41,746 nt of DNA, from positions 1 to 41,746 of IMG/VR virus record IMGVR_UViG_3300028025_000251. One strand, given 5' to 3'. Below, piece by piece: positions 362 to 40,899 of this stretch (positions are counted from its first letter, which is position 1; the number at the start of each line of letters is the position of its first letter). The notes beneath the pieces were generated by a model, which was given only the letters and a program-made list of their open reading frames with translations, searched no databases and was not told the DNA's origin. Source of the stretch: a virus. Both the position numbers and the translations under genes were made by a program.

Positions 362-919
362 ATGCTAGAAAACATACCAGACGTTGAAGAGAACGTACCA
401 TTGCCAGCCTCGGCTACTGAGGCTATGCCCGAGCTTTCCCCAAAGGAAGAATTAGACATGATGGCTAGAACAGCCAAGATGTTGTCGGACATAACAGGAG
501 AACCTCTCGCCCCAACAGAGGAACATCGCGGTCAAGCTATACAACTTGCCGAACAAATCGTTGCAAACAAGACAGACATGAATCTGGCGCAGTATCCCAA
601 TGAGACGATTGCCTATTTAGCAGGCATGGTGGCTCAGTATGACTTTATGGTCGTGCGGGAACTAGCAGATTTGAAAAAGTACGTCGTGAACAAACTCTTA
701 CAAGAGACTGACAACCCAGATCCTAAGTACAGGTTAGCTGCGGTAAAGGCTTTAGGAGAAGTTGATGGCGTAGATGCATTTAAGAAGCGCTCAGAACTCA
801 CAATCAAGCACCAATCACTTGAAGAAGTGGAGAGTGAGTTGCTTGCGACACTGCAAAGACTAGAAAAACGCACGGTTGACGTTCACGCTAGAGTTGTAAA
901 CGATGAAAATCACGCCTGA
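362..919 (+). CDS. terS: Probable terminase small subunit
   Basis: 185 residues, acidic and mostly helical. The end overlaps the large terminase start (ATG at 903), the classic position of the small, DNA-recognising subunit of the packaging motor. The central part (ELADLKKYVVNKLL, then KYRLAAVKALGEVDGVDAFKK) and the C-terminal coiled coil (EEVESELLATLQRLEKR) fit small terminases that oligomerise through helices. I chose ATG 362 because the N-terminus upstream of it in the same frame (from 266) is hydrophobic and unlike the rest, and GGAG lies at 343-346, though rather far from the start. No clear helix-turn-helix signature is visible, so the call rests mainly on gene order, size and helical character. 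Confidence 0.65.
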   Translation: MLENIPDVEENVPLPASATEAMPELSPKEELDMMARTAKMLSDITGEPLAPTEEHRGQAIQLAEQIVANKTDMNLAQYPNETIAYLAGMVAQYDFMVVRELADLKKYVVNKLLQETDNPDPKYRLAAVKALGEVDGVDAFKKRSELTIKHQSLEEVESELLATLQRLEKRTVDVHARVVNDENHA

Positions 920-2408
920 ACAGATAAAAATCATTCGGGACAGCCTGCCATTCATGCAGGAAGATGAAATGCGTCGTAATTTAGAGCTTTTAAAGATTTA
1001 CGACAGTGAATCTGTACAAGAAGTAGGTAAAGGGGACTTCCTAACCTTCATAGATCACGTATATCCGGGCTATAAAGTAGGCCCGCACCATAGAAGACTA
1101 GCCAAAATCTTTGAAGACATAGCAAATGGCAAAAAAAGACGGGTAATTGTGAACATTGCCCCCCGTCACGGCAAGTCTGAGATGATTTCTTACCTTGCAC
1201 CTGCATGGTTTCTAGGTAAATACCCTCATAAAAAGGTCATTATGGCCTCCCACACAGCGGATTTGGCGGTCAATTTTGGCCGCAGGGTGCGTAATTTGGT
1301 GGGTTCTGACCCCTATAAAGACATCTTTCCGCAGGTCGAATTGCAGTCAGATTCCAAGTCCGCGTCCCGTTGGGGAACAAACTTCCAAGGAGAATACTTT
1401 GCTATTGGTGTCGGAGGTGCTCTTGCTGGTCGTGGCGCTGATCTATTTATTATTGACGACCCTCACTCGGAACAAGATGCTAAGACTGGGAGACCGGACG
1501 TTTTCCTTCCTGCTTGGGAGTGGTTTCAGTCTGGCCCTCTCCAGCGTCTTATGCCGGGTGGCTCTATTATTATTGTGATGACGCGGTGGAGTAAGCTGGA
1601 CTTGACAGGGATGATTGTTAACCAGATGGGCAAAGAGGAAGATGTAGATCAGTGGGAGATTGTTGAGTTCCCCGCCATCCTCAATGACAAGCCGCTATGG
1701 GGAGACTTCTGGTCGTTGGAAGAACTACTGGGTAAAAAAGCAGGTATGGATCCCCGCTACTGGCAAGCCCAGTACATGCAGAATCCTGTCTCGGAAGAGG
1801 GCGCGTTACTCAAACGGGAGTGGTGGCAGATATGGGAGAAGGACGATCCTCCCAAGTGTGAGTTCATCATCATGAGTCTTGATGCGGCGCAAGAGACCAA
1901 CAACAGGGCTGACTACAACGCACTGACAACATGGGGTGTGTTCTTTAACGAAGAAACAAACAACTATTGCATCATCTTGCTCAATGCCATCAAGAAGCGA
2001 ATGGAGTACCCAGACCTTAAAGCAATGGTGCTTGAGGAGTACAAAGAGTGGGAGCCTGATGTGTTTATTGTAGAGAAGAAGTCTAACGGCTCAGCACTCT
2101 ACCAAGAATTTAGACGGATGGGTGTGCCCATAGGTGAGTTTACTCCGGGCAAAGGACAAGATAAGATTGCGCGGGTGAATGCAATTTCTGCACTGTTCCA
2201 AGGAGGAATAGTGTTTGCACCAGATCGCAGATGGGCAAGAGAAGTTATTGAAGAGTGCAACGACTTCCCGTCAGGCACTAACGATGACTTGGTTGACTCA
2301 ACAACATTGGCGCTCATGCGGTTTAGACAAGGCGGGTTTATCAGACTGCCGAATGATGAACCCGAAGATATTAAATACTTTCGCCGTAGAACAGCGGCGT
2401 ACTACTGA
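903..2408 (+). CDS. terL: Terminase large subunit (packaging ATPase and nuclease)
   Basis: 501 residues, full length for the family. It pumps DNA into the procapsid and cuts concatemers at the portal. ATPase domain: Walker A APRHGKSE (86-93), Walker B LFIIDD (181-186), and a coupling-type motif VMTRWS (225-230). RNase H-like nuclease domain: SLDAAQ (Asp327), VEKKSNG (Glu391) and NDDLVDS (Asp461/462), the expected acidic triad. The sequence style matches large terminases of the TIGR01630 (psiM2 ORF9-like) group. It starts inside the end of the small subunit gene (17-nt overlap), so the two are probably translationally coupled. The packaging strategy (terminal repeats or headful) cannot be read from these motifs alone. 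Confidence 0.96.
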   Translation: MKITPEQIKIIRDSLPFMQEDEMRRNLELLKIYDSESVQEVGKGDFLTFIDHVYPGYKVGPHHRRLAKIFEDIANGKKRRVIVNIAPRHGKSEMISYLAPAWFLGKYPHKKVIMASHTADLAVNFGRRVRNLVGSDPYKDIFPQVELQSDSKSASRWGTNFQGEYFAIGVGGALAGRGADLFIIDDPHSEQDAKTGRPDVFLPAWEWFQSGPLQRLMPGGSIIIVMTRWSKLDLTGMIVNQMGKEEDVDQWEIVEFPAILNDKPLWGDFWSLEELLGKKAGMDPRYWQAQYMQNPVSEEGALLKREWWQIWEKDDPPKCEFIIMSLDAAQETNNRADYNALTTWGVFFNEETNNYCIILLNAIKKRMEYPDLKAMVLEEYKEWEPDVFIVEKKSNGSALYQEFRRMGVPIGEFTPGKGQDKIARVNAISALFQGGIVFAPDRRWAREVIEECNDFPSGTNDDLVDSTTLALMRFRQGGFIRLPNDEPEDIKYFRRRTAAYY

Positions 2409-2416
2409 GGACAGAT

Positions 2417-4831
2417 ATGGCTACCAGCAACATTGACAAAGCTCTTTACCCCGCTGACGGCGGACTTCCAGATTTGATGGACATGGGAGAGCCTGCACTT
2501 GAGATTGAGATTGAGAACCCTGACTCGGTAACTCTGGCTGATGGCTCTATGGAGATTACGCTTGAGCCGGGCAAAGAAGTCAGTGATGACTTTAGTAAGA
2601 ACTTGGCTGAAGACATGGACGACAGTGAGCTAGGTGCTCTTGCGTCTGAGTTGATGGAGTATGTCGATGCCGACATTAACTCTCGCAAAGATTGGACTGA
2701 AACTTACGTCAAAGGTCTTGAAGTATTGGGGATGAAGTATGAAGAAAGGACAGAGCCTTGGAACGGCGCTTGCGGAGTTTTCTCGACAGTACTCACAGAG
2801 GCCGCTATTCGCTTCCAAAGTGAAACTATTACTGAAACGTTCCCTTCTCAAGGCCCAGTTAAAACGGAGATCATCGGTGCAATTGACCGTCTTAAAGAGG
2901 AGGCGGCAAATCGCGTTAGGGAGGACATGAACTATCGCCTGACAGAGGAGATGCCCGAGTACAGACCAGAGCATGAACGCATGCTGTTTAATTTAGGACT
3001 TGCTGGTTCAGCGTTTAAGAAGGTGTACTACGACCCGGGTCTGAGAAGGCAAGTGTCTTTGTTTGTTCCTGCTGAAGATGTGATTATCCCCTATGGCTCA
3101 AGCGGAGCTAGAACTGCTGAGCGTGTTACGCACTTGATGCGGAAGACAAAGAATGATGTAAAAAAACTACAGGTCAATGGTTTTTATCGTGATGTTGATT
3201 TGGGCGAACCTGTTCAGATTCATACTGATGTCGAGAAGAAAAAGGCTGAAGAACAAGGCTATTCAGTCAATGAAGATGACCGCTATCAGATCGCTGAGAT
3301 TCAAGTTGATTGGAACTTAAAAGGATATGAGCAGGAAGATGAAATTGCTCTGCCTTACATCATTGCAATTGATCGTGGCACAAATAAAGTTTTAGCTATC
3401 TACCGCAACTGGGAAGAGGATGATGAGACTTATAAGAAGCGTCAGCACTTGGTTCAGTATGATTATGTCCCGGGTTTTGGTGCTTATGGCATGGGTCTCA
3501 TCCATATTATTGGTGGTTACGCTCGCGCTGGCACTTCTCTTATCAGGCAACTTATTGATGCAGGTACTCTCAGCAATTTACCGGGGGGTATGAAGTCACG
3601 CGGTCTGCGTGTAAAGGGTGACGATACACCGATTGCTCCGGGTGAGTTCCGCGATGTAGACGTGCCAAGCGGCTCGATCAAAGACAACATCATGATGCTC
3701 CCGTACAAGGAGCCGTCACAGGTCTTAGCGGCGCTGTTAAATCAAATCACAGAAGAAGGTCGTCGCCTTGGCTCTATCGCTGACATGAAGGTCAGTGACA
3801 TGAGTGCGCAGGCTCCTGTGGGCACTACGCTTGCTCTCTTAGAGCGGCAGCTTAAGATTATGGGTGCGGTGCAAGCCCGTGTACACAACTCAATGAAAGA
3901 GGAGTTTAAGCTCCTCAAGAACATCATTAGAGATCACGCGCCCGCAAGCTACGACTACGAGCCAGTAGCAGGTAATCCAGCGGTAATGCAGGCCGATTAC
4001 GACATGGTTGAAGTTATACCTGTCAGTGATCCCAATAGCTCTACGATGGCTCAACGCATCATGCAGTATCAAGCTGTAATGCAGTTGGCTCAGCAAGCAC
4101 CTCAGATTTACGACCTTCCAATTTTGCATAGGCAAATGATTGAAGTACTGGGTGTAAAGAATGCTGAGAAGCTTGTGCCGATTGATGACGACATGTCACC
4201 GCGTGATCCGATAAGTGAGAACATGGCGTTCTTGCGAGGAGAGCCTACGAAGGCGTTTATCTATCAGGATCAAGACGCTCACATCGCGGCTCACACTACC
4301 TTTATGCAGGATCCGATGATCATGCAGACAATGGGTCAGAACCCTGCGGCTCAGCAGATGATGGGGGCTATTCAGGCTCACATTGCTGAACACTTGGCGT
4401 TTGCGTATAGACGTAAGATTGAAGAGCAACTAGGTGTGCCCCTTCCACCTCCCAACGAGAAACTTCCTGAAGAAGTTGAAGTTCAGTTGTCTCAACTTGT
4501 GGCTCAAGCGTCGGCGCAGTTGCTCCAGCAGAACATGGCTCAGATGCAGGACAAGAAGAATCAGCAGATGTCACAAGACCCGCTCATTCAGATGCAGCAG
4601 GCCGAGTTGCAGATTAAAGCGCAAGAAGCACAGACCCGTGCAGCCAAGACTCAAGCTGATATCCAGTTGGCGCAAGAGAAACTTAAACTTGAAGCCCAGC
4701 GCATCATGATGGACGTGCAGAAAGAACAGCAGCGAGTTTCTTCGCAAGAGCGGCAGACTAACCAGAAGCTTAAGGCTGACTTAGTTAAAAATATTGTTAA
4801 ACCACAAACCAGACCCGGAGGTATTCGGTGA
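2417..4831 (+). CDS. Portal protein (head-tail connector)
   Basis: 804 residues, in the size range of P22-type portals (725 in P22). It forms the dodecameric ring at the capsid vertex to which terminase docks. Seen: an acidic N-terminus; a conserved-looking core with EPWNGACGVFSTVLTEAA and AIRFQSETITETFP near residues 115-145; a YDPGLRRQVSLFVPAEDVI segment near 205-225; and a long Gln-rich, coiled-coil C-terminus (about 680-790, runs such as QLVAQASAQLLQQNMAQMQ), which fits the helical barrel of podoviral portals. It lies directly after terL with 8 nt between them (GAGGACAGAT leader). Its TGA overlaps the GTG start of the next gene by 3 nt. Family assignment is by context, size and motif memory rather than a search. 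Confidence 0.85.
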   Translation: MATSNIDKALYPADGGLPDLMDMGEPALEIEIENPDSVTLADGSMEITLEPGKEVSDDFSKNLAEDMDDSELGALASELMEYVDADINSRKDWTETYVKGLEVLGMKYEERTEPWNGACGVFSTVLTEAAIRFQSETITETFPSQGPVKTEIIGAIDRLKEEAANRVREDMNYRLTEEMPEYRPEHERMLFNLGLAGSAFKKVYYDPGLRRQVSLFVPAEDVIIPYGSSGARTAERVTHLMRKTKNDVKKLQVNGFYRDVDLGEPVQIHTDVEKKKAEEQGYSVNEDDRYQIAEIQVDWNLKGYEQEDEIALPYIIAIDRGTNKVLAIYRNWEEDDETYKKRQHLVQYDYVPGFGAYGMGLIHIIGGYARAGTSLIRQLIDAGTLSNLPGGMKSRGLRVKGDDTPIAPGEFRDVDVPSGSIKDNIMMLPYKEPSQVLAALLNQITEEGRRLGSIADMKVSDMSAQAPVGTTLALLERQLKIMGAVQARVHNSMKEEFKLLKNIIRDHAPASYDYEPVAGNPAVMQADYDMVEVIPVSDPNSSTMAQRIMQYQAVMQLAQQAPQIYDLPILHRQMIEVLGVKNAEKLVPIDDDMSPRDPISENMAFLRGEPTKAFIYQDQDAHIAAHTTFMQDPMIMQTMGQNPAAQQMMGAIQAHIAEHLAFAYRRKIEEQLGVPLPPPNEKLPEEVEVQLSQLVAQASAQLLQQNMAQMQDKKNQQMSQDPLIQMQQAELQIKAQEAQTRAAKTQADIQLAQEKLKLEAQRIMMDVQKEQQRVSSQERQTNQKLKADLVKNIVKPQTRPGGIR

Positions 4832-5541
4832 CACAAATCAACCCCGGTTGGATAAACTGGGCCATAGAAAATACAGCGATGGGGGTGACTGATGCTGCCC
4901 TCGTTGAGGCTATGGTCAAAGCTGGTATTGATGCTTCTGCGGCTGCTCTTTTGATGAGTAAAGTGCGTGGGCTACCCGGCTATGAAGTTTTAGAACGTAC
5001 TATTCGCAAGAATCAAAGTTTAAAGGCAGCGACTGCACTTAAACATGAGCCGTTATCAAAGCATGAGAATGTTTTTCCAATTGAGTTTATCACTGAAATT
5101 AACAAATATGTAGACGGACAAACGTCTTCTCGCAGCAACTTTTCTTGCTGGCCAAAAGAACTTTTGCGCAGTAGTGGCGCGGTGTTGGTATATGACTTCC
5201 CAAAAGAAATATCAGACAAGATATTTGAGTATGTCAAAGTATTTGCACCAGAGCTTAGTAACTATGAAATTAACCATGCTATGTATCAAAGATGGATGCC
5301 GGGAAGTTATATTACTTGGCACTCTGATTTTTCATGGAAAGTAGCTGTAACAATTTATCTCAATGAGACATGGGATAAAAATTGGGGCGGCTATTTTGCT
5401 TATGAGTCCGGTTCTGAGATCAAATGTATCAAGCCTGAATTCAATGTAGCGTCAAAGATATTTTTACCAGTGGAGCATACGGTGTTTACCGTTACTCCTG
5501 ATGCACCGCCCAGAAACGCAATTCAAATATTTGCCAAATGA
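4828..5541 (+). CDS. 2-oxoglutarate/Fe(II)-dependent oxygenase, prolyl-hydroxylase-like
   Basis: 237 residues with a GTG start overlapping the portal stop (GTGA). The catalytic double-stranded beta-helix is at about 115-237. Iron ligands are His165 and Asp167 in ITWHSDFSW and His217 in PVEHTVF; Arg229 in PPRNAIQIF, 12 residues after the distal His, is the likely 2-oxoglutarate-binding residue. YQRWMPGSYITWHSD and GGYFAYESGSE are the usual strand signatures of P4H/PKHD-type hydroxylases. Residues 1-65 are a separate helical module (PGWINWAIENTAMGVTDAAL onward) that could be a substrate- or partner-binding domain. The enzyme would hydroxylate a side chain, most plausibly on a protein. It is followed by a glycosyltransferase with a 4-nt overlap, suggesting sequential action. 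Alternative roles: modification of DNA bases or of small molecules. Confidence 0.85.
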   Translation: MTQINPGWINWAIENTAMGVTDAALVEAMVKAGIDASAAALLMSKVRGLPGYEVLERTIRKNQSLKAATALKHEPLSKHENVFPIEFITEINKYVDGQTSSRSNFSCWPKELLRSSGAVLVYDFPKEISDKIFEYVKVFAPELSNYEINHAMYQRWMPGSYITWHSDFSWKVAVTIYLNETWDKNWGGYFAYESGSEIKCIKPEFNVASKIFLPVEHTVFTVTPDAPPRNAIQIFAK

Positions 5542-6491
5542 AATCAGACACAATATTCATCAGCATTGCTTCATACTGCGACAGTCAGTTAGCTGCAACA
5601 GTTCAAGATGCATTAAGCAAAGCAAAGTATCCAAACAGATTGCGGTTTGGCATAGTGGAGCAACGTGAAGCAAGTAAGCGTGTAGTGTTTACCAAAGAAC
5701 AACGCCAAACAATTCGTTATTTAGGTGTTGATCCAGTTGAATCTAGAGGTGCTTGTTGGGCACGCGCAGTTGCCATGTCAATGTACTGTGGCGAAGATTG
5801 GTTCTTTCAAATTGACTCCCATATGGTCTTTGAAAAAGACTGGGATGAGTGGTTTATAAATGAGTCAATCAGATGTTTAAAATTTAGCGATAAGCCTGTT
5901 ATTACTAGCTATCCGAGTCTGTACACGTTAGAAAATGGGCAACCAAAAACGGTTACTGAAAAAGGCGTAAGAGCACACATCATTTTGAAAATTTTTAATC
6001 GGACTGACTTTAATCCGAGTAATTACACCATCTTATGTGAAGCGGTTCTTCTAGATACTACAGACCCAGTGTTTGGTTTTCATATGGGTTGCAACTGCAT
6101 ATTTGCTTCCGGTAAATTTGTTGAAGAAATTCCATACGACCCACAATTTTATTTTGAGGGCGAAGAACAAGCGATGGCCCTTAGAGCCTATACACATGGG
6201 TGGGACATCCTCCATGTGGCAAATATGCCCATCTATCATTTGCAAGAAAGATCTACTAGAGACGCCCACTGGGAAGGTAATTTAGATGAAAACCGTGGCG
6301 ACAACAGTTGGTGGGTATTAAAAGATCAAGCAATTAAACGACTAGCTCAGTTGGTTAATGGCGAAGACATTGGAGTCTTTTCTTTGGGTACAAAGCGATC
6401 TGTTGAGGACTACGCTAGTTTTTGTGGCATTGATTACTTTAATGCAACCTTAAATGAAAAAGCTTTTTGTGGGCCTTGGAGTAATTTATGA
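5538..6491 (+). CDS. PF11397-type glycosyltransferase (Skp1 GlcNAc-transferase-like)
   Basis: 317 residues. The N-terminus IFISIASYCDSQL (6-18) followed by LRFGIVEQRE is the nucleotide-binding start of the GlcNAc family (PF11397), whose type member in Dictyostelium adds GlcNAc to hydroxyproline of Skp1. RGACWARAVA (70-79) and FFQIDSHMVF (89-98) are the family hallmark; Asp93 and His95 replace the DxD metal site. The acceptor-side half shows YFEGEEQAMALRAYTHGWDI (205-224) and IYHLQERS with His234, also typical. No membrane segment or signal is visible, so it should act in the cytoplasm. The ATGA overlap with the upstream oxygenase implies coupled translation. Donor sugar and acceptor are not known from sequence; a virion protein is a reasonable guess. 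Confidence 0.82.
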   Translation: MKSDTIFISIASYCDSQLAATVQDALSKAKYPNRLRFGIVEQREASKRVVFTKEQRQTIRYLGVDPVESRGACWARAVAMSMYCGEDWFFQIDSHMVFEKDWDEWFINESIRCLKFSDKPVITSYPSLYTLENGQPKTVTEKGVRAHIILKIFNRTDFNPSNYTILCEAVLLDTTDPVFGFHMGCNCIFASGKFVEEIPYDPQFYFEGEEQAMALRAYTHGWDILHVANMPIYHLQERSTRDAHWEGNLDENRGDNSWWVLKDQAIKRLAQLVNGEDIGVFSLGTKRSVEDYASFCGIDYFNATLNEKAFCGPWSNL

Positions 6492-6679
6492 ACGAAATAG
6501 AACTGCTTAAAAAACAAAACGACGAATTTCGCCAACAGGCGATTGACAAACTTGTTACTGGTGGAGTCAAAGACTTTGCAGAGTATCGAGAATTGGTAGG
6601 GGTTATTAGGGGTCTTGACCATGCCAATTACAACCTTCAAGACCTCAAACAACGTATAGAAAGACTAAACGATGAGTGA
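6488..6679 (+). CDS. Small coiled-coil protein of unknown function
   Basis: 63 residues, highly charged and almost entirely helical (LLKKQNDEFRQQAIDKL, then DFAEYRELVGVIRGLDHA and QDLKQRIERLNDE). It overlaps the glycosyltransferase stop (ATGA) and the next start by 8 nt, so it is part of the same transcript. Proteins of this size with an EYRELVGVIRGL-like core occur next to capsid genes in aquatic phages, but I know no function. It could be a head-completion or assembly factor, or a partner of one of its neighbours. Confidence 0.75.
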   Translation: MNEIELLKKQNDEFRQQAIDKLVTGGVKDFAEYRELVGVIRGLDHANYNLQDLKQRIERLNDE

Positions 6680-7076
6680 AATACTCGTAAGCCAAGACGG
6701 TGCCACAGCCACTGTACTTCCCGCGACGGCTGAAGAGAAAGCCAAGCAGGTTCCTGATCCTGCTACTTTTCATGTTCTTTGCATGCTTCCCAAAGCAGAA
6801 GAAGAATTTAGTGAGACTGGGATTCTTAAATCCGCTACTTCCATGCACCATGAGGAATTACTTTCCCCCGTGTTATTTGTAGCAAAAATGGGCCCAGATG
6901 CATTTAAAGATGAAAAGCGGTTCCCTTCCGGGCCTTCATGTAAGGTTGGAGACTTCATTATTACTCGCCCCAATACTGGCACCCGTATGAAAATACATGG
7001 TACAGAGTGGCGTTTGATCAATGATGACTCTATCCAAGCAGTTGTCCAAGACCCTCGCGGTATTCAACGCCCTTAA
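6672..7076 (+). CDS. GroES/Cpn10-like co-chaperonin
   Basis: 134 residues. The body (about 33-125) follows the GroES fold: a FHVLCMLPKAEEE start strand, a flexible stretch EEFSETGILKSATSMHHEE (43-61) in the place of the GroEL-binding mobile loop, then LLSPVLFVAKMGPDAF, PSCKVGDFIITRP (88-100) and TEWRLINDDSIQAVV (111-125), equivalent to the GroES segment that starts KVGD and ends with I.AIV. Phage co-chaperonins such as T4 gp31 replace host GroES to fold the capsid protein with host GroEL. The gene lies just before the scaffold and capsid genes, which supports that role. The N-terminal 30 residues are an extra, probably disordered tail. Confidence 0.78.
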   Translation: MSEILVSQDGATATVLPATAEEKAKQVPDPATFHVLCMLPKAEEEFSETGILKSATSMHHEELLSPVLFVAKMGPDAFKDEKRFPSGPSCKVGDFIITRPNTGTRMKIHGTEWRLINDDSIQAVVQDPRGIQRP

Positions 7077-9164: not shown

Positions 9165-10076
9165 ATGGCTATTTCACGCGCACAACTACTTAAAGAGTTG
9201 CTCCCCGGTCTGAACGCATTGTTTGGTCTGGAGTACGCTAAATACGGCGAAGAGCACAAAGAGATCTACGAAACTGAGACATCAGAGCGTAGCTTCGAAG
9301 AAGAGACAAAGCTTTCTGGCTTCTCTGCTGCACCTGTCAAGAATGAGGGCTCCGCCATTCAGTACGACAATGCACAAGAGGCATGGACTGCACGTTACAC
9401 CCACGAAACCATTGCGATGGGCTTCTCCATCACAGAGGAAGCTGTGGAAGATAACTTGTATGACAGCTTGTCTTCACGTTATACCAAGGCTTTGGCCCGT
9501 GGTATGGCTTACACCAAGCAAGTTAAAGCTGCTTATGTGTTGAACAACGCCTTTACTGGCGGCCCAACATATGGCGACGGCGTGGTTCTGTGTTCTACAG
9601 CCCACCCACTTGTCTCCGGTGGCACTAACAGCAATCGTCCTACAACAGGCGCTGACTTGAATGAAACATCGTTGGAAAACGCTGTTATTCAGATCGCTGC
9701 TTGGACAGACGAGCGCGGTTTGTTGATCGCTGCTAAGCCCCGTAAGCTTATTATCCCCCCAGCACTGCAATTCGTTGCAACTCGCTTGTTGGAAACCGAA
9801 CTCCGCGTCGGTACAACTGACAACGATATCAACGCATTGAAGAACAACGGTTCGATCTCTGAAGGTTACACTGTTAACCACTATTTGACCGACACCAATG
9901 CTTGGTTCTTGACAACAGACGTACCTAACGGCCTGAAGCACTTTGTTCGCTCACCCTTGTCTAACAGCATGGACGGCGACTTTGACACAGGTAACGTTCG
10001 TTACAAAGCCCGTGAGCGTTACAGCTTCGGCGTGTCAGACCCACTGGGTATCTTTGGTTCACCCGGTTCGTCCTGA
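9165..10076 (+). CDS. Major capsid protein, HK97 fold
   Basis: 303 residues. The order scaffold, accessory head gene, capsid, terminator is standard. Features typical of short HK97-fold coat proteins: an N-arm plus E-loop region rich in charge (EIYETETSERSFEEETKLSG, 44-63), the spine-helix-like SLSSRYTKALARGMAYTKQV, the A-domain segment AAKPRKLIIPPALQFVATRL with its usual 'pp' turn, and a C-terminal strand RYKARERYSFGVSDP. A strong TTAAGGAG site precedes ATG 9165 and an intrinsic terminator follows 8 nt after the stop, as expected for the most highly expressed gene. It belongs to the group of coats related to Mu gpT-like proteins by style; the exact family needs a profile search. Confidence 0.88.
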   Translation: MAISRAQLLKELLPGLNALFGLEYAKYGEEHKEIYETETSERSFEEETKLSGFSAAPVKNEGSAIQYDNAQEAWTARYTHETIAMGFSITEEAVEDNLYDSLSSRYTKALARGMAYTKQVKAAYVLNNAFTGGPTYGDGVVLCSTAHPLVSGGTNSNRPTTGADLNETSLENAVIQIAAWTDERGLLIAAKPRKLIIPPALQFVATRLLETELRVGTTDNDINALKNNGSISEGYTVNHYLTDTNAWFLTTDVPNGLKHFVRSPLSNSMDGDFDTGNVRYKARERYSFGVSDPLGIFGSPGSS

Positions 10077-18117: not shown

Positions 18118-21100
18118 ATGACTACAGCATATACATCACTCTTAGGCTTGGCCTTGCCAGTCACGGGCGAACTAAGCGGCACATGGGGCGACACTGTAAA
18201 CGCCGGTATTACATCCCTTGTTGATTCTTCTGTTGCGGGCACAACTAATATCAGCACTGATACGGACGTTACGCTGACCACAACTACTGGCGCAGCTAAC
18301 ACAGCCCGACAAACCATTCTCTTGTTCTCGGGTGCGCGTACGGCATTGCGTACGGTTACAGCGCCAGCCCAGTCTAAAACTTACACAGTAATTAATGCCA
18401 CCACAGGTGGTTTTGCGGTTAAGTTAATTGGCTCCGGCCCAACAACAGGCGTAACAATTATTGCTGGTGAATCAGCTTTTTGCGCATGGAACGGTTCTGA
18501 CTTTGTAAAAGTTAGTAACACCGGCGGCGCTTACACAGTTACTGATTTAACTGTTACTGGCAATACAATTCTTGGCGACGCAAGCACAGACACAGCAACG
18601 CTTAATGCCTCATCCCGTTTTAACGCCCTGGCAACTTTTGGTTATGCTGGTGTTTCTGGTTCTACGCTAACAACTTCTGCTCCAGCATTTGTGTACAGCG
18701 GTGCAACAACCTACACAGATACTAGTATTTCTGGCGGTACAAAAACTCACGGGCCTTTCTGGTCATTTGCTATACCTACACTGGCTAACCCAACAACAGT
18801 TACAACTTACACAAACGCTTCAACCTTGTACATTGCTGGTGCTCCTGCGGCTGGTACAAACATCACGATCACTAACCCATACTCGTTGTATGTAGCCGCT
18901 GGCGCTTCGTACTTTGGCGGGGCTGTTAGTTTTATAGGTAATACAACTTTAACGACAACAACCGTTACTTCGTTAACAGACTCTGGTTTAACTGCTGGTC
19001 GCGTGACATACGCAGGTACGGCTGGCTTGCTTCAAGACTCTGCCAATTTAACTTTTGATGGTACAAATTTAACTTTGGGTGGAGGCACAGCCAACGGAGT
19101 AACCTATCTCAATGGTTCAAAGGTTCTGACAAGTGGCTCTGCGCTTACTTTTAACGGTACAAACTCACTTACTTTAAACGCTTCAGCGGCTTCTCTGAAT
19201 TTAGGTATTACTACCAACTATGGTGTTGTTTCTGCCGCTGGAACAAATCCTGCCGCTATTTATTTTAATGGTGCAACACGAACAAGTTTTCAAAGCCATC
19301 TTCAGTATTTTGCCGCTAATCATACGTTTTTTAATGAAACAGGTGGCTCTGAAATCATGCGCCTGCTTAACACAGGCAATGTAGGCGTTGGAACCAGCAA
19401 TCCCATAACCAAATTTGTTGTCAGTAATGCTGGTGCAGAAGGTCTTGAAGTTTCACCATCGGGCGGTACTGTTAGCTTAACTGCCTATAACAGAAGCGGT
19501 GCGGCGTATGCGCCCCTTGCGTTGATTGGTAGCGGCGGAGGTACGCTAACAATGGGTTCCACTGGGGGTGTTTTTAATACAAAAGTCGGTATTAGCACAA
19601 CTACTTCTGCGCTTTCACAATCATTAAACATTGATGGCTCTGGTGGAACGCTTGCTGGTACAGCCTCAATCTCTTTGTGGGACGGCAACAGCGGTGGCTC
19701 TCGTCGTTGGGCAATTGCAAATGGTGCAAGTGCGACAGGTACTAGTCAAATTGGCGTATTGACCTTTAGTTCAGGTACAGGTTCGTTCACCGCAGACCCA
19801 TTAAGTGCAGGTTTTGAAATCATGCGCCTGACTGGTAGCCCCAGTTTGAACGTGGGTCAAACGGTTACAACAGGCACAGTTGGTGCGGGGGAAACCAATG
19901 CCACAACAACATTTAGTAGTCTTGGTTATGGAATGTTGTCGCTCACCAATAAAAGCAATACAGCCAACAACTACACATGGATGACTTTTAACGAGTCAAA
20001 CTACAACTACGTTGGCGCAATTGGTACGCAGAATCAAAGTCACAGCCCTGCTTCTGGCGCGGTGTATGGTGACTTGTTGTTTGCAACAAAGACCAATGGT
20101 CTTGGTGGATTTCCAACAGAAAAAATGCGTCTTACATCTGAAGGTAATTTGCTAATAAATATTACAACTTCAAATGGGTATAAGGTAAATGTAAGAACTA
20201 ATGCAGGAGCTACTGCATTAGATGGCGAATTTATATCCGATGGTACAAGAAATCTTATTCTTGCACAAAGTGGTTCTACATACAATTACGCAGGTATATC
20301 TGCAAATGAAAATATAGTCTATGCAAGCGGAAATCCATTAAACATTGTTGCAGATTCATCACTAATTAAATTTTCTACCGGAAACGAACGGATGCGTATT
20401 ACAAACGCAGGCAATGTAGGTATTGGTACAAACAACCCTGCGTATCTCTTAACTGTAAATGGCGTAATTAATAACGCTAGTAACGCTGACCCATCACCCT
20501 ATACACAACAAAGAATTACAGTTTACAACGATGGCGGTAATTGGGGGTATTTGGGATATGGCAATGATGCCATTATGCGTATTGTTCATGCAACTACTGC
20601 TTCTAGTTACCCATTGCTTTTTGGAACAACAAGTGCGGCTAACAATACAGGCACTTTTACAGAAACAATGCGTATTTCTCTTACGGGTGCTTTGGTTTTA
20701 AAAGGTGGCACTGCAAACCCAACTGGTGTAGGGGTAACATTCCCCGCAACTCAATCAGCATCATCAGACGCTAATACTTTGGATGACTATGAGGAGGGTA
20801 GTTTTAATTGTACAGTTACATATAGCACAACTTTAACCGCCACACCTCCTACAAGCACATTAACAGTTACTGGTTATTACGTAAAAGTTGGCAATATAGT
20901 TACTTGTACTTTCCCAGAAATAAGCAGGGCATCAACATTTAGCAATACTTCTGTAGTTATTTCTCAGTTTTCACTTCCATTTGCAACTGCAAATGATGGT
21001 ACTTGGGCTACTAATACCACGGGTTTTTATAATTTAGAAGGTCAATACGGGGGTACTATTATAAATACAAATGTTGCGTACATAGTTCAAGTCCCGCCTA

Positions 21101-21216
21101 ATGCTTCTAAGATAGATGCACAAGCAAATACAACAAATTTGCAGGGTGGATTATATTGGCGACTTGCTGATACATCTGCGGCTGTAAGATTTTCTGTAAC
21201 TTACAAAGCGGCATAA
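18118..21216 (+). CDS. Tail fibre protein
   Basis: 1032 residues, Thr/Gly/Ala/Asn-rich and almost all beta. Residues 1-130 (SLLGLALPVTGELSGTWGDT, VNAGITSLVDSSVAG) are the anchor domain found at the N-terminus of many aquatic phage fibres. The shaft carries recurring E-x-M-R-(L/I) turns, at about 19351, 19818, 20119, 20389 and 20665, often with GNVGIGTxNP, a pattern of trimeric beta-prism fibres. The C-terminus has LDDYEEGSFNCTV and YYVKVGNIVTCTF, the type of terminal receptor-facing domain seen in cyanophage and coliphage fibres. No S74-peptidase chaperone signature is visible. It probably binds the host surface. Confidence 0.85.
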   Translation: MTTAYTSLLGLALPVTGELSGTWGDTVNAGITSLVDSSVAGTTNISTDTDVTLTTTTGAANTARQTILLFSGARTALRTVTAPAQSKTYTVINATTGGFAVKLIGSGPTTGVTIIAGESAFCAWNGSDFVKVSNTGGAYTVTDLTVTGNTILGDASTDTATLNASSRFNALATFGYAGVSGSTLTTSAPAFVYSGATTYTDTSISGGTKTHGPFWSFAIPTLANPTTVTTYTNASTLYIAGAPAAGTNITITNPYSLYVAAGASYFGGAVSFIGNTTLTTTTVTSLTDSGLTAGRVTYAGTAGLLQDSANLTFDGTNLTLGGGTANGVTYLNGSKVLTSGSALTFNGTNSLTLNASAASLNLGITTNYGVVSAAGTNPAAIYFNGATRTSFQSHLQYFAANHTFFNETGGSEIMRLLNTGNVGVGTSNPITKFVVSNAGAEGLEVSPSGGTVSLTAYNRSGAAYAPLALIGSGGGTLTMGSTGGVFNTKVGISTTTSALSQSLNIDGSGGTLAGTASISLWDGNSGGSRRWAIANGASATGTSQIGVLTFSSGTGSFTADPLSAGFEIMRLTGSPSLNVGQTVTTGTVGAGETNATTTFSSLGYGMLSLTNKSNTANNYTWMTFNESNYNYVGAIGTQNQSHSPASGAVYGDLLFATKTNGLGGFPTEKMRLTSEGNLLINITTSNGYKVNVRTNAGATALDGEFISDGTRNLILAQSGSTYNYAGISANENIVYASGNPLNIVADSSLIKFSTGNERMRITNAGNVGIGTNNPAYLLTVNGVINNASNADPSPYTQQRITVYNDGGNWGYLGYGNDAIMRIVHATTASSYPLLFGTTSAANNTGTFTETMRISLTGALVLKGGTANPTGVGVTFPATQSASSDANTLDDYEEGSFNCTVTYSTTLTATPPTSTLTVTGYYVKVGNIVTCTFPEISRASTFSNTSVVISQFSLPFATANDGTWATNTTGFYNLEGQYGGTIINTNVAYIVQVPPNASKIDAQANTTNLQGGLYWRLADTSAAVRFSVTYKAA

Positions 21217-24013: not shown

Positions 24014-25882
24014 ATGCCATTAAAGAAACTTGTCCAGAAAGCTGGTGTAAACCGCGAAAACACTCGGTATACGTCTGAGAACGGATATTACGTTTCTGAT
24101 AAAGTGCGTTTCCGCCAAGGCACGCCCGAAAAGATTGGTGGCTGGGTTCGTATTTCTGCTACGACTTTCTTAGGAGTCTGCCGTTCTTTGTGGAACTGGG
24201 TAACTTTGGGCGGTCAAAACTTACTTGCTGTAGGCACAAACTTAAAATATTACATTGAGTCTGGCGGGGCATATAACGACATTACGCCACTGCGTAAAAC
24301 TGCGGCTACGCTTGGCGCAAACCCTTTTGCTACTACCAATGGATCTACTACTGTTGTTGTTACAGACTCGACAGGCGGCTGGGTTAGCGGTGACTATGTT
24401 ACTTATAGCGGTGCAACAGCTGTTGGCGGACTAGATTTAAATGGTGAATACCAGCTAACTACAATTGGCACTAGCACGACAACATACTCTATCCAAGCCG
24501 CAACTGCCGCTACATCTACAGCTACAGGTGGTGGTGCTTCTGTTCTAGCCGCATATCAAATTAATGTTGGCTCACCCTATGCTGTTCCTTTGGTTGGTTG
24601 GGGTGCTGGCGCGTGGGGTTCTGGCACATGGGGTATTGGTACAGCATCTACTAACCAGATGCGTATTTGGAGTCAAGCTAACTTTGGTGAAGATTTAATC
24701 TTTGCACCTAATGGCGGTGGTATTTATATCTGGAAAGCCAGTACATCGCTAACAACACGGGGCGTATTAATATCTAGTCTGGTGGGAGCTTCCTCCGTCC
24801 CAACAGTTCAAAACTTTATTTTGGTTTCTGATTCATCACGGTTTACGTTTGCTTTTGGATGTAATGAGTTTGGCAGTGCCACGCAAGACCCAATGTTAAT
24901 TCGTTGGTCTGACCAAGAAAATTATTTGGAGTGGGCTCCGTCTATAACAAACCAATCAAGTTTTTTACAACTGTCTCATGGGTCTAGAATTGTTACGGCT
25001 TTGCAGTCTCGTCAAGAGATTTTGGTTTGGACAGATTCTTCTTTATATTCCATGCAGTATCAAGGCCCACCAGCCGTGTGGGGCGTTCAGCTATTGGGTG
25101 ATAACCTATCTATTGCCGGGCCAAATGCTGCTGCCATTGCTTCTGGCGTGACGTACTGGATGGGTATTGATAAGTTTTATAAATACGACGGTCGCACACA
25201 AACGTTGCGCTGTGATTTACGTCAGTTTATTTTCCAAGATATTAATTTAGAGCAAGCGGCACAGATATTTGCATCTACCAATGAAGGCTTTAACGAAGTC
25301 TGGTTTTTCTACTGTTCAGCCAATTCATTTGCCATTGATAAATATGTGATCTATAACTACGCAGAGGATATTTGGGCTTACGGAACAATGGCTCGCACGG
25401 CTTGGCTTGATTCTGCTCTGCGAGATTACCCGATGGCTGCAACTTATACGTATAACATTGTTTACCATGAGCAAGGTAATGATGACAACGAAACTGCAAC
25501 AGCACTGCCTATTAACGCAATTATTGAGACAACTGAATTTGACATTGATGATGGCGACCACTTTGGGTTTGTATGGCGTATCTTGCCGGACATTACTTTC
25601 CGTGGGTCTGACGCAGCGTCTCCACAAGTCACAATGACGCTGATCCCAATGCAGAACTCTGGTTCAGGTTACAACGATCCTATTTCTTTAGGTGGTAACT
25701 CAAATGCCACAGTGGTGAGAACAGCTACAGTTCCAATTGAGCAATTTACAGGGCAGGTATATGTCAGGGTTCGTGGTCGTCAGATGATTATGAAGATAGA
25801 GTCCAATCAATTAGGCTGCGCGTGGCAGTTGGGTAGCCCCCGTATTGATATCAAACAAGATGGTCGTAGGGGTAACTCATGA
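24014..25882 (+). CDS. Tail nozzle / packaged-DNA stabilisation protein, P22 gp10-like
   Basis: 622 residues, AAAAGGTAG site. The start NRENTRYTSENGYYVSDKVR, FRQGTPEKIGGWVR and the later SLWNWVTLGGQNLLAVGTNL are the recognisable beginning of P22 gp10-type proteins; repeats of beta-propeller-like strands follow (LIFAPNGGGIYIWKAS, FILVSDSSRFTFAFGCNEFG, IVTALQSRQEILVWTDSSLY, DKFYKYDGRTQTLRCDLRQF). In P22 and relatives gp10 extends the adaptor and closes the DNA channel. Residues about 96-185 are an added beta domain (VVVTDSTGGWVSGDYVTYSG onward), followed by a GWGAGAWGSGTWG motif shared in style with the protein at 17287. Confidence 0.8.
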   Translation: MPLKKLVQKAGVNRENTRYTSENGYYVSDKVRFRQGTPEKIGGWVRISATTFLGVCRSLWNWVTLGGQNLLAVGTNLKYYIESGGAYNDITPLRKTAATLGANPFATTNGSTTVVVTDSTGGWVSGDYVTYSGATAVGGLDLNGEYQLTTIGTSTTTYSIQAATAATSTATGGGASVLAAYQINVGSPYAVPLVGWGAGAWGSGTWGIGTASTNQMRIWSQANFGEDLIFAPNGGGIYIWKASTSLTTRGVLISSLVGASSVPTVQNFILVSDSSRFTFAFGCNEFGSATQDPMLIRWSDQENYLEWAPSITNQSSFLQLSHGSRIVTALQSRQEILVWTDSSLYSMQYQGPPAVWGVQLLGDNLSIAGPNAAAIASGVTYWMGIDKFYKYDGRTQTLRCDLRQFIFQDINLEQAAQIFASTNEGFNEVWFFYCSANSFAIDKYVIYNYAEDIWAYGTMARTAWLDSALRDYPMAATYTYNIVYHEQGNDDNETATALPINAIIETTEFDIDDGDHFGFVWRILPDITFRGSDAASPQVTMTLIPMQNSGSGYNDPISLGGNSNATVVRTATVPIEQFTGQVYVRVRGRQMIMKIESNQLGCAWQLGSPRIDIKQDGRRGNS

Positions 25883-26226
25883 GCGTGATTATTACGTCAG
25901 AGTTTGAGCTTCAACGGGTTCAACCACCTGCCCTACCTTTTGCTACGCCAGACTATAGCGAGCAGTATCAAAATCAATTAAACAACATTCTGCGTTTGTA
26001 TTTTAATCGTGTACAGGCAATACTTGACCAACTTGATTCGGGCGCTTTTCAACCGCCTTTGACTAATTACACTGTTGCAACATTACCTAGCGCAACTACA
26101 TCTGGTAAGGGCGCAAGAGCTTTTGTAACGGATGCACTACTTCCTGCGTTTGGAGCAACTGTTGCAACTGGCGGGGCTGTTGCAGTGCCTGTATATTCCG
26201 ACGGAACAAATTGGAAGGTCGGATAA
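25879..26226 (+). CDS. Short tail protein with helix and C-terminal beta domain
   Basis: 115 residues, ATGA overlap with the nozzle gene. The helix [26 protein letters not shown] is in the first half; the C-terminus [20 protein letters not shown] then [13 protein letters not shown] is a small domain frequently found at the ends of fibre- or needle-like phage proteins. A trimeric coiled coil plus beta tip is plausible, as in a tail needle or fibre adaptor. Placement after the nozzle gene supports a tail-tip role. Confidence 0.7.
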
Positions 26227-29200
26227 TGGCTATACGTGACGGCAGATCTATTTCGGTTTTTGAAGACAACGGTGGCTTCGGAGATGATTTTAGTGTAGAC
26301 GAAGGTGTTGGTGTCGGCGGCGGCATTATTACATTACCTATTACGCCTGTTGTTACTCCTGATGTTGTTACTCCTGTTGGCGATAGTGGGGGCATTACAA
26401 CACTAACCCCAACTCCAACTCTAACTTATACATCTACTGATGAGCAGGGCAATCCAATTTATGACACCGTTACGCCTGTTGTTACTCCTGATGTAGTTAC
26501 TCCTGATGTAGTTACGCCTGTTGTTACTCCTGATGTTGTTACTCCTGTTGTTACTCCTGATATAGTTACTCCTGATGTAGTTACGCCTGTTGTTACTCCT
26601 GATCTAATTGTTCCAACAATAACAACCCCAACGGTTAGCTCAGTCACGACTGACTTTGATGATGTCGTTGCACCTCCAAGTGGTGGCACCAAAACCGTTA
26701 CGGCAACTCCTGTGGCTACTCCCGTAGCGGCTCCTGTAGTTACTCCAACAAATACAACCAAGTGGCGTGATTTTACGTTAGACAATACGGTTGTTAATAA
26801 GTTAATGGATCAGATTACAGCCCAGCAAAAAGCTGGTACAGCTAAATACTATCAAGGTGAAGGTTTAGGTTCAATTGAGGCCAATACCCGTGAGATGGCA
26901 AATATCTTGGCAAGTGTTGGTGTAACGGATATTAAAGACTTTGGTCAAATTACAAAAACAATTCCTGCATCATCTTACGAAACTGAACAAGGCACGGTAG
27001 ACGTACCTGAACAAACTTACACAACCTACGGCAATAAATTAACTGGTAAAGAAGTACCTAATACTTATAGCGAACGCCAAACAGGTAATGCTTTTGGCGG
27101 GACTTTTTCTGGTTCAGGGAACACTGGCTATCGGGTGCAATTTGATGCGCAAGGCAATCCAGTCTTTTACACAACCAAAGCGTCGTCTAATGATTTAGCC
27201 AACATCATGAAAGATCTTGGCCCTATTGGTCAGATTGGTTTAGCTATAGCCACAGGTGGTTTATCAATTCCACAACAAATTGCGGCTCAGTTTGCGTTAA
27301 AAGTGTTAAGTGGCGAGGACGTAGCTAGTGCTGTAAAAAGCGCAGCCGCATCTTATTTGGGCGCTCAAATACCCGGTTTAGATGTAATGAAAGACGCTAC
27401 GGCGTACTTAAATGGAATTGATCCTACTGGAGTCCTTGCCAAAACATTGACTGGCGCTGCGGTGGGCGCTACTACGGGTGTTATTACTGGACAAGATTTA
27501 TTGACATCAGCTACGGCAGGTGCTGCAAGTGGTGGTTACTCTGGCGCTGCTGATGCGATCATGGGTAATTTTGATTTGACTGGTTTATCTAATAGTCAAA
27601 AATCAGCATTAAAAACCGCAATTACAGGCACGATTTCTGGCAAACCGCTTGACCAGACTTTGATGAATTCTATTACCACGCTTGTAAATTCTGAAGTTAA
27701 AAAACTTACAAGTGCCCCAACTGTAACTCCAACTACTGTAACTCCAACTACTGTAGCAGCTGTTGATGATAATACTGATAACCCCGTAATTGCTATTGAT
27801 GCTGATGGCAATGAAGTTCGTCTAAAAGATATCAACACATTGTTTGCGGGTTCAGGCAACAATGATTATGCCGCTGAAGCATCAAAGATTCTTAACAGTT
27901 ACGATACCGCAGGCTTGGCGGCTGTGGCTGCTCCTGCGGCTGGTGCAACTGCTGCGACTAACTCCCCACTGCTTCGTCTTGTACAAGCTGCCGCTAATGA
28001 TGCAAATTACGCCACAAAACTTTCGGCGTTAGAAAGTGTATTGACAGCCGCTGGTAGCTCAGTTGCCAAAATATTAGGCACTGCTATTTCATTGGGTACT
28101 TATTCACCCGGATTAAACATAGATGAAGATGCAACTTTAAAGCGTTTGCGTGACTCTGGCTTAATCACAATAGATGATTTAAAGACTACTACACCAGCTG
28201 CTACACCTGTGGCAACGCCTACTGTTTCACCAACTGTTACGCCTACTGTTGCTCCAACAGTTACGCCTACTGTTACTCCCTACATTGTTAAACCAGATGA
28301 TTACAAAGATACAACTGAAGAAATTCAAAATTGGCAAGGGACATTGGATGAAGTTTATTACACCGATGAAGACGGGAATCCTGTTACTTTAAGAGAATAT
28401 TACAGAATTTTAGGTTTTGAACCCCCTAAATTGCCGCCCAGTATTTTACCGGCAACGCCTACAGTTACACCTACTGAAACACCAACTGTTACGCCTACAG
28501 TGACTCCGACTGTTACTCCAGTTGAGACTCCTACAGTTACACCTACTACAACTCCAACAGTTGCGCCTACTGTTACGCCTACTGTTACGCCCGGCCCAAT
28601 TCGTCGTGTTTTTGATCCTTCAGACCCAACAACGTGGCCTACTCCAGATGAAAGCCCAAATTTTGATCCGGCAAATCCCAATACATGGCCTGATTACAAC
28701 CCAGCTACGCCTACAGTAACACCTGTTAAAGCACCTACAGTAACGCCTGTTAAAACGCCTACTGTTACTCCTGTCGTAATGCCTACAATTGCCCCAACTG
28801 TGACTCCAGTTGAGACTCCGACTGTTACTCCGACTGTTACTCCGACTGTTACTCCGACTGTTACTCCGACTGTGACTCCGACTGTGACTCCGACTGTGAC
28901 TCCAGTTGAGACCCCAACAGTAACACCAACTATTACACCAACTCCAACTGTTACGCCGACTGTTACGCCTACTGTGACTCCGGTTGTAACGCCTACAGTG
29001 ACTCCGGTTGTAACGCCTACAGTGACTCCGGTTGTAACGCCTACAGTGACTCCGGTTGAAACCCCAACTGTTACCCCAACTGTTACGCCTACTGTTACGC
29101 CTACTGTTACGCCTACTGTTACGCCTACTGTGACTCCAGTTGAGACTCCAACGGTAAGTCCGACTGTTACGCCTACTGTGACTCCGACTGTTACGCCTAC

Positions 29201-29960
29201 TGTAAGTCCAACGGTGTCTCCAACGGTGTCTCCAACGGTGTCTCCTACTGTTAGTCCAACGGTAAGTCCAACGGTGTCTCCAACGGTGTCTCCTACTGTT
29301 AGTCCAACGGTAAGTCCAACGGTGTCTCCAACGGTGTCTCCAACGGTGTCTCCTACTGTTAGTCCAACGGTAAGTCCAACGGTGTCTCCAACGGTGTCTC
29401 CAACGGTGTCTCCAACGGTGTCTCCTACTGTTAGTCCAACAGTAAGTCCTACAGTAAGTCCTACAGTAAGTCCGACTGTTTCACCTGTTGTGTCTCCAGT
29501 TGTATCGCCTACAGTGACTCCAGTCGTGTCTCCGGTCGTATCGCCTACAGTGACTCCAATCGTGTCTCCGGTCGTATCACCTACAGTTACGCCTACAGTA
29601 GCGCCAACTGTGACTCCAAAAGTTACGCCTGTTACGACTCCAAAAGTTACAATTGCATCAGCTGTGTTGGGTTTAAATTTTCCGCAAGTGCAGCAAGCCC
29701 TTGCCGCTGCTGGCATCCCAGAATTAGCCAACGTGTTTTATTACGGCAAAGAATTTGGGACTAAAAAGCAAAAAGTTAATGAAAAGGGTGAGTTGATTGA
29801 AGAAGATTACAAACCACTGAGTGTTACCAAACCCGGTGTAGAAGTAGAACAGCTTGCCGAAGAAGCAAAAAGCAACGAAAATGTTGCCCTAGATGCCGCA
29901 GATAAGCTCATGGGCGAAAATACGTCTTTTGAAGACTTAATTAAAATTTTGAGGGGTTAA
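26226..29960 (+). CDS. Giant Pro/Thr/Ser-repeat virion protein of unknown function
   Basis: 1244 residues; ATG 26226 overlaps the upstream TAA. Four kinds of segments alternate: a VTPDVV-type repeat at about 40-130; a folded-looking part at about 175-640 with a hydrophobic Gly/Ala-rich stretch ([40 protein letters not shown]); two short PTVTP islands (about 660-690 and 742-795) separated by acidic linkers; and a continuous tract of about 310 residues (829-1142) built of P-T-V-T and P-T-V-S units. The C-terminal 100 residues ([20 protein letters not shown] onward, acidic) are unique. The place between nozzle and ejection genes suggests a virion or injected protein; the tract would be an extended, mucin-like rod and a good substrate for proline hydroxylation and O-glycosylation. 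Confidence 0.8.
26342..26612 (+). repeat. In-frame [10 protein letters not shown] tandem repeat, 15-bp units
   Basis: Units such as GTTACTCCTGATGTA and GTTACGCCTGTT are repeated with small changes, first around 26342-26380 and then from 26465 to 26612. They encode V-T-P-D-V and V-T-P-V. Near-identical copies suggest replication slippage. Confidence 0.85.
28711..29650 (+). repeat. Large in-frame PTVT/PTVS tandem repeat tract, 12-bp units
   Basis: About 75 four-codon units. Within it: a run of ACTGTTACTCCG-type units (28815-28905); three copies of the 24-bp unit GTGACTCCGGTTGTAACGCC plus TACA (28974-29050); and a higher-order block at about 29208-29470 in which CCTACTGTTAGT, CCAACGGTAAGT and CCAACGGTGTCT alternate. 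The last unit is present 3, 2, 3 and 4 times in successive blocks. The pattern is that of expansion by slippage or unequal recombination. Confidence 0.95.
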
Positions 29961-29961
29961 T

Positions 29962-30756
29962 ATGTCATACGATATTGGTGATGGGTACTACGTTGATGAT
30001 GATGGCGCTATTCAAAAATACGCTGTTGAAAGTACAAGTGACTACACACCTACAAGTGGCGATGCTTCTAATAGTGGTTTTAACTTTAATCTAAAAGATA
30101 TTACTAAACTACTAAGTGGTAGCAGTGATATGGGAACTGCCGGTCAACTAGCGGGCGTTGCGTCTATCTATGCGTTGATGAATAAATTGGGTGGGGGTCT
30201 TGGACAGACTGGTCAAGGTGTGTATAAAGGTTATCAAGGCGGTATTCCTAACTACACTGCCACGCGCACAATGAACCCAATTCCACGAACTGTAACTACA
30301 CCGCCTAGCCTCGGTTCTTCTGTGTCTAGTGTAGGTTTACGTCGCCCCGGTTCTGGTGGAGTTACGTATTTCACACCTATGGCCTACACCCCTGTGGCAA
30401 CAGCTGCACCTGCAACAACGCCTGCGCCTGTAGTTCCCGCAGCGGGTGGTGGTTTAATGGCTTCTGGCGGTATCTCTACGTTAGGCGGATATTCAGATGG
30501 TGGCCGGTTGCTTAAAGGCCCCGGAGATGGTGTCTCTGACTCTATTCCTGCTACTATTGGTGGTAAGCAACCCGCACGTTTGGCTGATGGAGAATTTGTG
30601 ATTCCTGCACGTATAGTGTCTGAGATTGGCAATGGTTCTACAGAAGCTGGCGCTAAAAAGTTATATGCCATGATGGATCGTATCCAAGGGGCCCGTAAGA
30701 AGTCTATTAAAAATGTTGCTGCCAATACTAAGGCAGACAAATATCTTCCTAAATAA
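29962..30756 (+). CDS. Virion or ejection protein with C-terminal GPGDGVSDSIPATIGG domain
   Basis: 264 residues, GAGGGG before ATG 29962. The N-terminus is acidic and Tyr-rich (IGDGYYVDDDGAIQKYAVES); the middle is Gly/Pro/Thr-rich linker with a weak hydrophobic helix (AGQLAGVASIYALMNKLGG). The C-terminus LLKGPGDGVSDSIPATIGGK, ARLADGEFVIPARIVSEIGN, GAKKLYAMMDRIQGARK is a domain that recurs at the ends of tape-measure-like and internal proteins of aquatic phages. A role inside the virion or in DNA delivery is inferred from this and from position. Confidence 0.72.
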   Translation: MSYDIGDGYYVDDDGAIQKYAVESTSDYTPTSGDASNSGFNFNLKDITKLLSGSSDMGTAGQLAGVASIYALMNKLGGGLGQTGQGVYKGYQGGIPNYTATRTMNPIPRTVTTPPSLGSSVSSVGLRRPGSGGVTYFTPMAYTPVATAAPATTPAPVVPAAGGGLMASGGISTLGGYSDGGRLLKGPGDGVSDSIPATIGGKQPARLADGEFVIPARIVSEIGNGSTEAGAKKLYAMMDRIQGARKKSIKNVAANTKADKYLPK

Positions 30757-40681: not shown

Positions 40682-40899
40682 CGCATGCGCCATGCCCGTA
40701 CACCAAGGACACCGTCCTTGGTTGTTACAAATGTTTTCACTCTGACACCCGCTTTTTTGGAGGTAGTGTCTATTATAAAAAGCATGTACGCAGGGCGCAT
40801 CGTAGGCACAAAGAAGCTATCCCCCACTCGCAAGGAGTGAAAGGGAAATAACCACTCAGGCTCATTCGGTGGTTGTGGTGGCGGTGGTGTCTTCGTCAT
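40678..40899 (-). CDS. Small phage protein of unknown function, VGDSFFVPT type
   Basis: 73 residues on the minus strand. A Pro-rich start (TKTPPPPQPPNEPEWLFPF) is followed by HSLRVGDSFFVPTMRPAYML, DTTSKKAGVRVKTFVTTKDG and LGVRAWR. Proteins with a GDSFFVPT core and a GVR.WR end are common near replication and recombination genes of aquatic phages. The start lies 38 nt inside the end of the upstream minus-strand gene, so the two are co-transcribed. The stop (40678-40680) overlaps the stop of the + strand late operon. Confidence 0.75.
   Translation of the reverse strand: MTKTPPPPQPPNEPEWLFPFHSLRVGDSFFVPTMRPAYMLFIIDTTSKKAGVRVKTFVTTKDGVLGVRAWRMR
40702..40722. other. Bidirectional hairpin at the convergence point
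   Basis: ACCAAGGAC (40702-40710) and GTCCTTGGT (40714-40722) form a perfect 9-bp stem with a 3-nt loop, 21 nt beyond the stop of the late operon and inside the minus-strand gene. No T tract follows on either strand. It may contribute to termination of the late transcripts or reduce antisense read-through, though it also lies in coding sequence. Confidence 0.45.

Follow-up and report, generated by a model that had tools for sequence, protein, structure and literature searches.

What do a dioxygenase gene and a glycosyltransferase gene do side by side in the structural operon of a freshwater phage? The window (the whole stretch analysed, a virus record of 41,746 bases) contains such a pair, here named OX and GT (Table 1). 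The first-pass annotation had proposed that the two genes act as one unit for hydroxyproline glycosylation, and the coordinates, the ATGA overlap joining OX to GT and the motifs that it gave for both were all correct. OX has a GTG start and encodes 237 aa, whereas GT has an ATG start and encodes 317 aa; the portal stop is linked to OX through a GTGA overlap. The proposed insertion between portal and capsid genes also held, with the pair filling a slot bordered by the portal gene and s63, the latter followed by the GroES-like gene, and with the capsid gene lying further downstream. Plants, algae and protists are known to glycosylate hydroxyproline in proteins, a chemistry described best in amoebae and plants.

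Table 1. Genes of the window discussed in the text, positions being counted from its first base.
Feature	Position	Strand	Remarks
Terminase	903-2408		
Portal	2417-4831	+	Left border of slot; phrog_1216 portal, 4e-22
OX, 2OG-Fe(II) dioxygenase	4828-5541	+	Predicted PHD/OGFOD1-like prolyl-hydroxylase class; PF13640, Foldseek, VIA, OGFOD1 profile
GT, PF11397 glycosyltransferase	5538-6491	+	PF11397, 1.4e-50; RGACWAR and QIDSH motifs
s63, small 63-aa ORF	6488-6679	+	Right border of slot; conserved in many cargo-free slots
GroES-like co-chaperonin	6672-7076	+	phrog_3188, 2.2e-7; slot anchor
321-aa, 155-aa, then 204-aa gene	between GroES-like gene and major capsid protein		
Major capsid protein	9165-10076		
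Tail-fibre-like protein	18118-21216		
Endolysin and holin	between tail-fibre-like and virion structural protein		
Virion structural protein	24014-25882		
Pro/Thr-repeat protein, 1249 aa	26211-29960	+	(PTVT)n/(PTVS)n; proposed substrate
264-aa protein	29962-30756	+	Positional anchor for repeat protein
Ejection-like protein	between 264-aa and virion-RNA-polymerase-like protein		
Virion-RNA-polymerase-like protein, 2391 aa	33506-40681		Matches phrog_2206 (virion RNA polymerase) and LPD38
Weak DNA primase/helicase match	40862-41731	-	phrog_8841, 5.8e-6; strand opposite structural operon

Judged from its sequence, GT is a clear PF11397 glycosyltransferase, as first assigned, scoring 173 bits against a cut-off of 21. 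Members of GT60 add GlcNAc onto hydroxyproline of Skp1 in Dictyostelium and use mucin-type acceptors elsewhere (PMC8724618). Since GT60 covers both, PF11397 membership alone cannot separate a hydroxyproline from a Thr acceptor. Among cultured phages, PF11397 was found only in XacN1-like jumbo phages (27-28% identity), with no annotated hydroxylase beside the gene.

The Pfam match of OX to PF13640 was above the cut-off (E 1.8e-6). The HxD...H...R iron and 2OG site that the annotation had recognized (His165, Asp167, His217 and Arg229) was present, and its residues were invariant in an alignment of 43 related phage proteins (H101, D103, H153 and R165 in alignment numbering, to which an offset of 64 is added). 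An AlphaFold model of OX built on seven sequences was of medium confidence (pLDDT 75). Its best Foldseek matches were Dictyostelium PhyA (the top one), P. putida PPHD, Trichoplax PHD (TaPHD) and human PHD2, with all of the top 50 being PHD-type or the putative oxygenase 3dkq. The VIA comparison of the model with prolyl hydroxylases gave a Z of ~14 across ~150 residues. A profile of the OX family matched OGFOD1 (4nhx) at 5e-7 and PPHD only at 0.023, and single-sequence queries gave no matches in the PDB sequence search. Because of the fold matches and the OGFOD1 profile match, OX is predicted to be protein-prolyl-hydroxylase-like, a class assignment from which the exact substrate is not readable. 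This agreed with the P4H fold expected in the annotation.

Residues 1-70 of OX form a helical N-terminal domain that is also found, at 33-46% identity, at the start of the L008 and L016 P4H proteins and of the L250 JmjC hydroxylase. Since L008 and L016 have it on their P4H but not on their OX, the window OX looks like a P4H N-terminal domain fused to OX, with the P4H catalytic part lost. The sharing of one helical domain by three hydroxylase types suggests that they have a common docking partner. No relative of OX was found in cultured phages.

The borders of the OX/GT insertion could be read from locus L171, which has almost the same portal as L004 and in which the portal gene overlaps s63 directly via ATGA. 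Relative to L171, the window has 1660 bp extra, exactly at the portal/s63 junction, and the GC content of the two cassette genes was 41% and 40% vs. 48% in the flanks. OX and GT are a clean 1660-bp swappable cassette in a variable slot between the portal and GroES-like genes.

We have surveyed the slot in the 168 loci of the lineage that show the complete portal-to-GroES-like interval (some of these lie on one contig, and the distinct cargo contigs number ~30). The slot was free of cargo in 130 loci. The remaining slots contained GT2 (8 loci), a PF11397 GT (7), P4H (5), OX with PF11397 (4, two of them the window and L003, probably one and the same phage), JmjC with u280 (9 loci on 4 contigs), P4H with u280 (2), the three-gene cargos P4H+OX+GT2 (L008) and P4H+OX+PF11397 (L016), and, in one case, an L176-type protein with an HxD motif and no Pfam model match. 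Save for the u280 family and the L176-type protein, all cargo was dioxygenase and/or GT, the exchange spanning at least three dioxygenase families and at least two GT families. The portal tree required 13 cargo changes, at least 10 of them on supported branches; L347 and L348, with nearly identical portals, carry P4H and a PF11397 GT in the slot, respectively. The slots of the cultured phages HTVC023P, HTVC027P, DSL-LC04 and Pag-Yong1 had no annotated hydroxylase or GT.

The u280 protein (280 aa; e.g., L250:5488-6330) was found only beside a JmjC or P4H hydroxylase. It was left unassigned, neither as a GT nor otherwise, having no credible Pfam/NCBIfam match, a 1% hhalign probability against the HPAT (hydroxyproline O-arabinosyltransferase family) domain and an AlphaFold pLDDT of 42. 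Judged by eye, L176-like sequence (L176:1618-2136) also occurs N-terminal to P4H in L347, L269 and L271; P4H genes with this N-terminus are L347:1788-2969 and L269:2841-4001.

Of the annotation's proposal that the pair forms one unit, the association stood: OX with PF11397 recurred in relatives L004, L005 and L016, and counterparts with P4H exist in bacteria as pairs and fusions. Its exclusiveness did not stand. GT-only, GT2-only and P4H-only slots rule out a strictly paired system, and in L008 the hydroxylases (P4H and OX) go with a GT2 enzyme instead. The OX/GT coupling is real, though not obligatory. Because there are sister phages with GT only (L348, which carries a Pro/Thr protein) and with GT2 only, GT need not depend on hydroxyproline, and the GT-only sister phages argue against a strict dependence of GT on a hydroxylase. 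In these phages, a hydroxylase may be encoded elsewhere or by the host. From L348, Thr may also serve as acceptor.

Very Pro/Thr-rich virion proteins encoded in the same operon had been put forward as plausible substrates. The description fits the Pro/Thr-repeat protein at 26211-29960, which has 12.9% P and 19.7% T, with long PTVT/PTVS repeats, and its neighbouring genes suggest a virion location; it adjoins ejection-type proteins and may be internal. A collagen substrate was ruled out, since Gly-X-Y repeats, i.e., a (GXY)5 run, were found in no window protein.

The repeat position in the virion/ejection module, beside homologues of the 264-aa protein, was compared in 15 phages with known slots, a repeat being scored as a run of six or more P[TSVAI]1-3 units. 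Such runs were present in 5/5 cargo phages (290, 36, 22, 185 and 67 residues) and in 1/10 cargo-free phages (26 residues). Since the tests (Fisher p = 0.002, Mann-Whitney p = 0.0006) ignore relatedness and the tree provides only three phylogenetically independent contrasts, none of them reversed (p = 0.25), the association between cargo and repeat protein in the lineage is only suggestive. Beyond the lineage, a Pro/Thr-repeat ORF was found in 15/64 dereplicated PF11397 viral loci vs. 0/43 OX-family loci (p = 0.0002), these control loci coming from phages of other kinds. The 130 cargo-free loci showed no such repeats in the terminase-capsid region, which does not include the position of the repeat gene. 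On the contig of L008 (L339/L340), the contig end falls inside a long (PT)n run. Assembly thus breaks there, and metagenomic data may underestimate how many longer repeats exist.

We put at about 0.45 the probability that the cassette acts on one of the phage's own structural proteins, in all likelihood the Pro/Thr-repeat protein. What the analysis establishes is the two enzyme families, the OX fold class, where the cassette begins and ends, its turnover and its co-occurrence with repeat proteins; for the target, the reaction order, the acceptor, the sugar and the advantage to the phage we infer the following. OX would hydroxylate prolines of the repeat protein and GT would add a sugar, probably HexNAc, onto the resulting hydroxyproline, with Thr as a possible additional or alternative acceptor. 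Swapping hydroxylase and GT families in the slot would then give a mucin-like protein a different coat, the benefit being plausibly stability, or escape from host or environmental recognition. A hydroxyproline acceptor, a GlcNAc donor and decoration of the virion are thus putative, and Thr, which mucin-type GT60 enzymes use, is an equally available acceptor.

It could also be that GT glycosylates Thr/Ser of the repeats and that hydroxylation of Pro by OX is a separate event or a means of tuning the repeat, with no hydroxyproline-linked glycan being made. GT60 includes mucin-type polypeptide alpha-GlcNAc transferases (PMC8724618), Pro/Thr repeats are present in the GT-only L348, and many phages have PF11397 near Pro/Thr-repeat ORFs with no adjacent oxygenase. 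We regard this as somewhat unlikely, as the recurrent pairing and fusion of PF11397 with P4H/HPAT in bacteria, together with the pairs seen in this lineage, point to linked chemistry.

The bacterial genome scan with GT yielded 46 loci, 13 of which had a hydroxylase adjacent, near or fused to PF11397. In five pairs (from an Actinomycetales MAG, Arthrobacter and three mycobacteria), the GT gene comes first and overlaps the P4H gene by 4 bp, with 47-97% identity among the GTs. The two genes are divergent in SAR86 and convergent in a Rhodospirillales MAG, and in Nitrospira a 2OG+JmjC double hydroxylase is encoded in the vicinity of PF11397. HPAT, PF11397 and a P4H-type domain are fused in two gammaproteobacterial MAG proteins, of 1200 and 1184 aa. 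Chance proximity of PF11397 and a hydroxylase should be rare, because 20 of the scanned genomes had 43 PF13640 matches in ~85 Mb. In one actinobacterial family, PF11397 was present in only 2/149 genomes, too few for a statistic.

Pro/Thr-repeat proteins were encoded close to several of the bacterial loci, among them a (PT)n protein that follows GT in L314, and the PT-rich L291. A coarse composition test showed no enrichment of Pro/Thr-rich ORFs by the bacterial GTs (26/246 near, 23/177 far); a Pro/Thr link is suggested only under the strict repeat criterion and by single loci. The two fusions (L285:3627-7229 and L292:2294-5848) each adjoin a small SP/TP-rich protein. In L284:5082-9137, a pilin-like protein whose (PAPT)n repeats are long is encoded near a PF11397 GT and P4H, and the Nitrospira stretch L295:1245-5968 holds a PF11397 GT, a PEPGVPP-type repeat protein and the fused 2OG+JmjC double hydroxylase. 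In Noviherbaspirillum (L274:6645-8957), PF11397 is fused to a SET/Rubisco-LSMT-type methyltransferase region.

OGFOD1, the best profile match of OX, acts on uS12. The PPHD substrate is EF-Tu (PMC7864055). Hence, OX might instead hydroxylate host EF-Tu or uS12, with GT modifying a host glycan or protein and the slot being no more than a hotspot for genes of this sort. We consider such a takeover of the host unlikely, as the slot cargo consists of hydroxylases and GTs rather than being mixed, and the slot is part of the structural operon, its cargo going along with the repeat protein. Hydroxylation of a DNA base by OX followed by its glycosylation by GT, for which there are precedents in phage systems pairing oxygenases or hydroxymethylases with DNA glycosyltransferases, is highly improbable, since OX had no Pfam match to TET/JBP at E<=0.1 and only E 0.063 with the AlkB-type PF13532, its top folds are prolyl hydroxylases, and PF11397 is a polypeptide-glycosyltransferase family.

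The closest enzymatic match of the OX/GT cassette is the Skp1 PhyA-Gnt1 system of Dictyostelium/Toxoplasma, which likewise has a PHD-class dioxygenase and, in Dictyostelium, also a PF11397/GT60 transferase. However, Skp1 is a eukaryotic protein whereas the window pair lies in a phage operon, in which either partner can be replaced by other hydroxylases or GTs and sister phages have GT without oxygenase. The Mimivirus L230 lysyl hydroxylase-glucosyltransferase hydroxylates and then glycosylates a viral repeat protein on Lys (PMC9614988). This virus-encoded order of reactions is what we propose for the window, but L230 belongs to different enzyme families and acts on collagen repeats, and the window has no Gly-X-Y repeats. 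The mucin-type polypeptide alpha-GlcNAc transferases of GT60 share the GT family and have Thr/Pro-rich acceptors, but are eukaryotic Golgi enzymes without a hydroxylase partner. In mycobacteriophages, capsid and tail proteins are glycosylated by GTs of the phage (cited in PMC12619734), with glycans at the C-termini of capsid and tail-tube subunits; the portion of the source drawn on here mentions no hydroxylase partner. The bacterial PF11397-P4H pairs and HPAT-PF11397-P4H fusions likewise join PF11397 with a proline-hydroxylase-class partner, some with Pro/Thr-rich neighbours, but they are chromosomal and have a classical P4H instead of OX. The literature search, with most subscription journals outside its coverage, returned no described phage or bacterial GT60-P4H system.

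A wider reading, which we advance tentatively and with rather low confidence, is that this lineage builds hydroxyproline-linked glycans on its own mucin/extensin-like repeat protein by means of a hypervariable slot and that bacteria do likewise on Pro/Thr-rich surface proteins through GT60-P4H operons and HPAT-GT60-P4H fusion enzymes, so that hydroxyproline O-glycosylation would be more widespread in prokaryotes and phages. Its significance derives from a phage cassette tied to a repeat protein, together with operons and fusions in bacteria that draw on these enzyme families. If true, it would place a hydroxyproline-glycosylation pathway in prokaryotes and viruses, give a hint at the origin of the protist PhyA-Gnt1 and offer a testable system of phage-coat variation.
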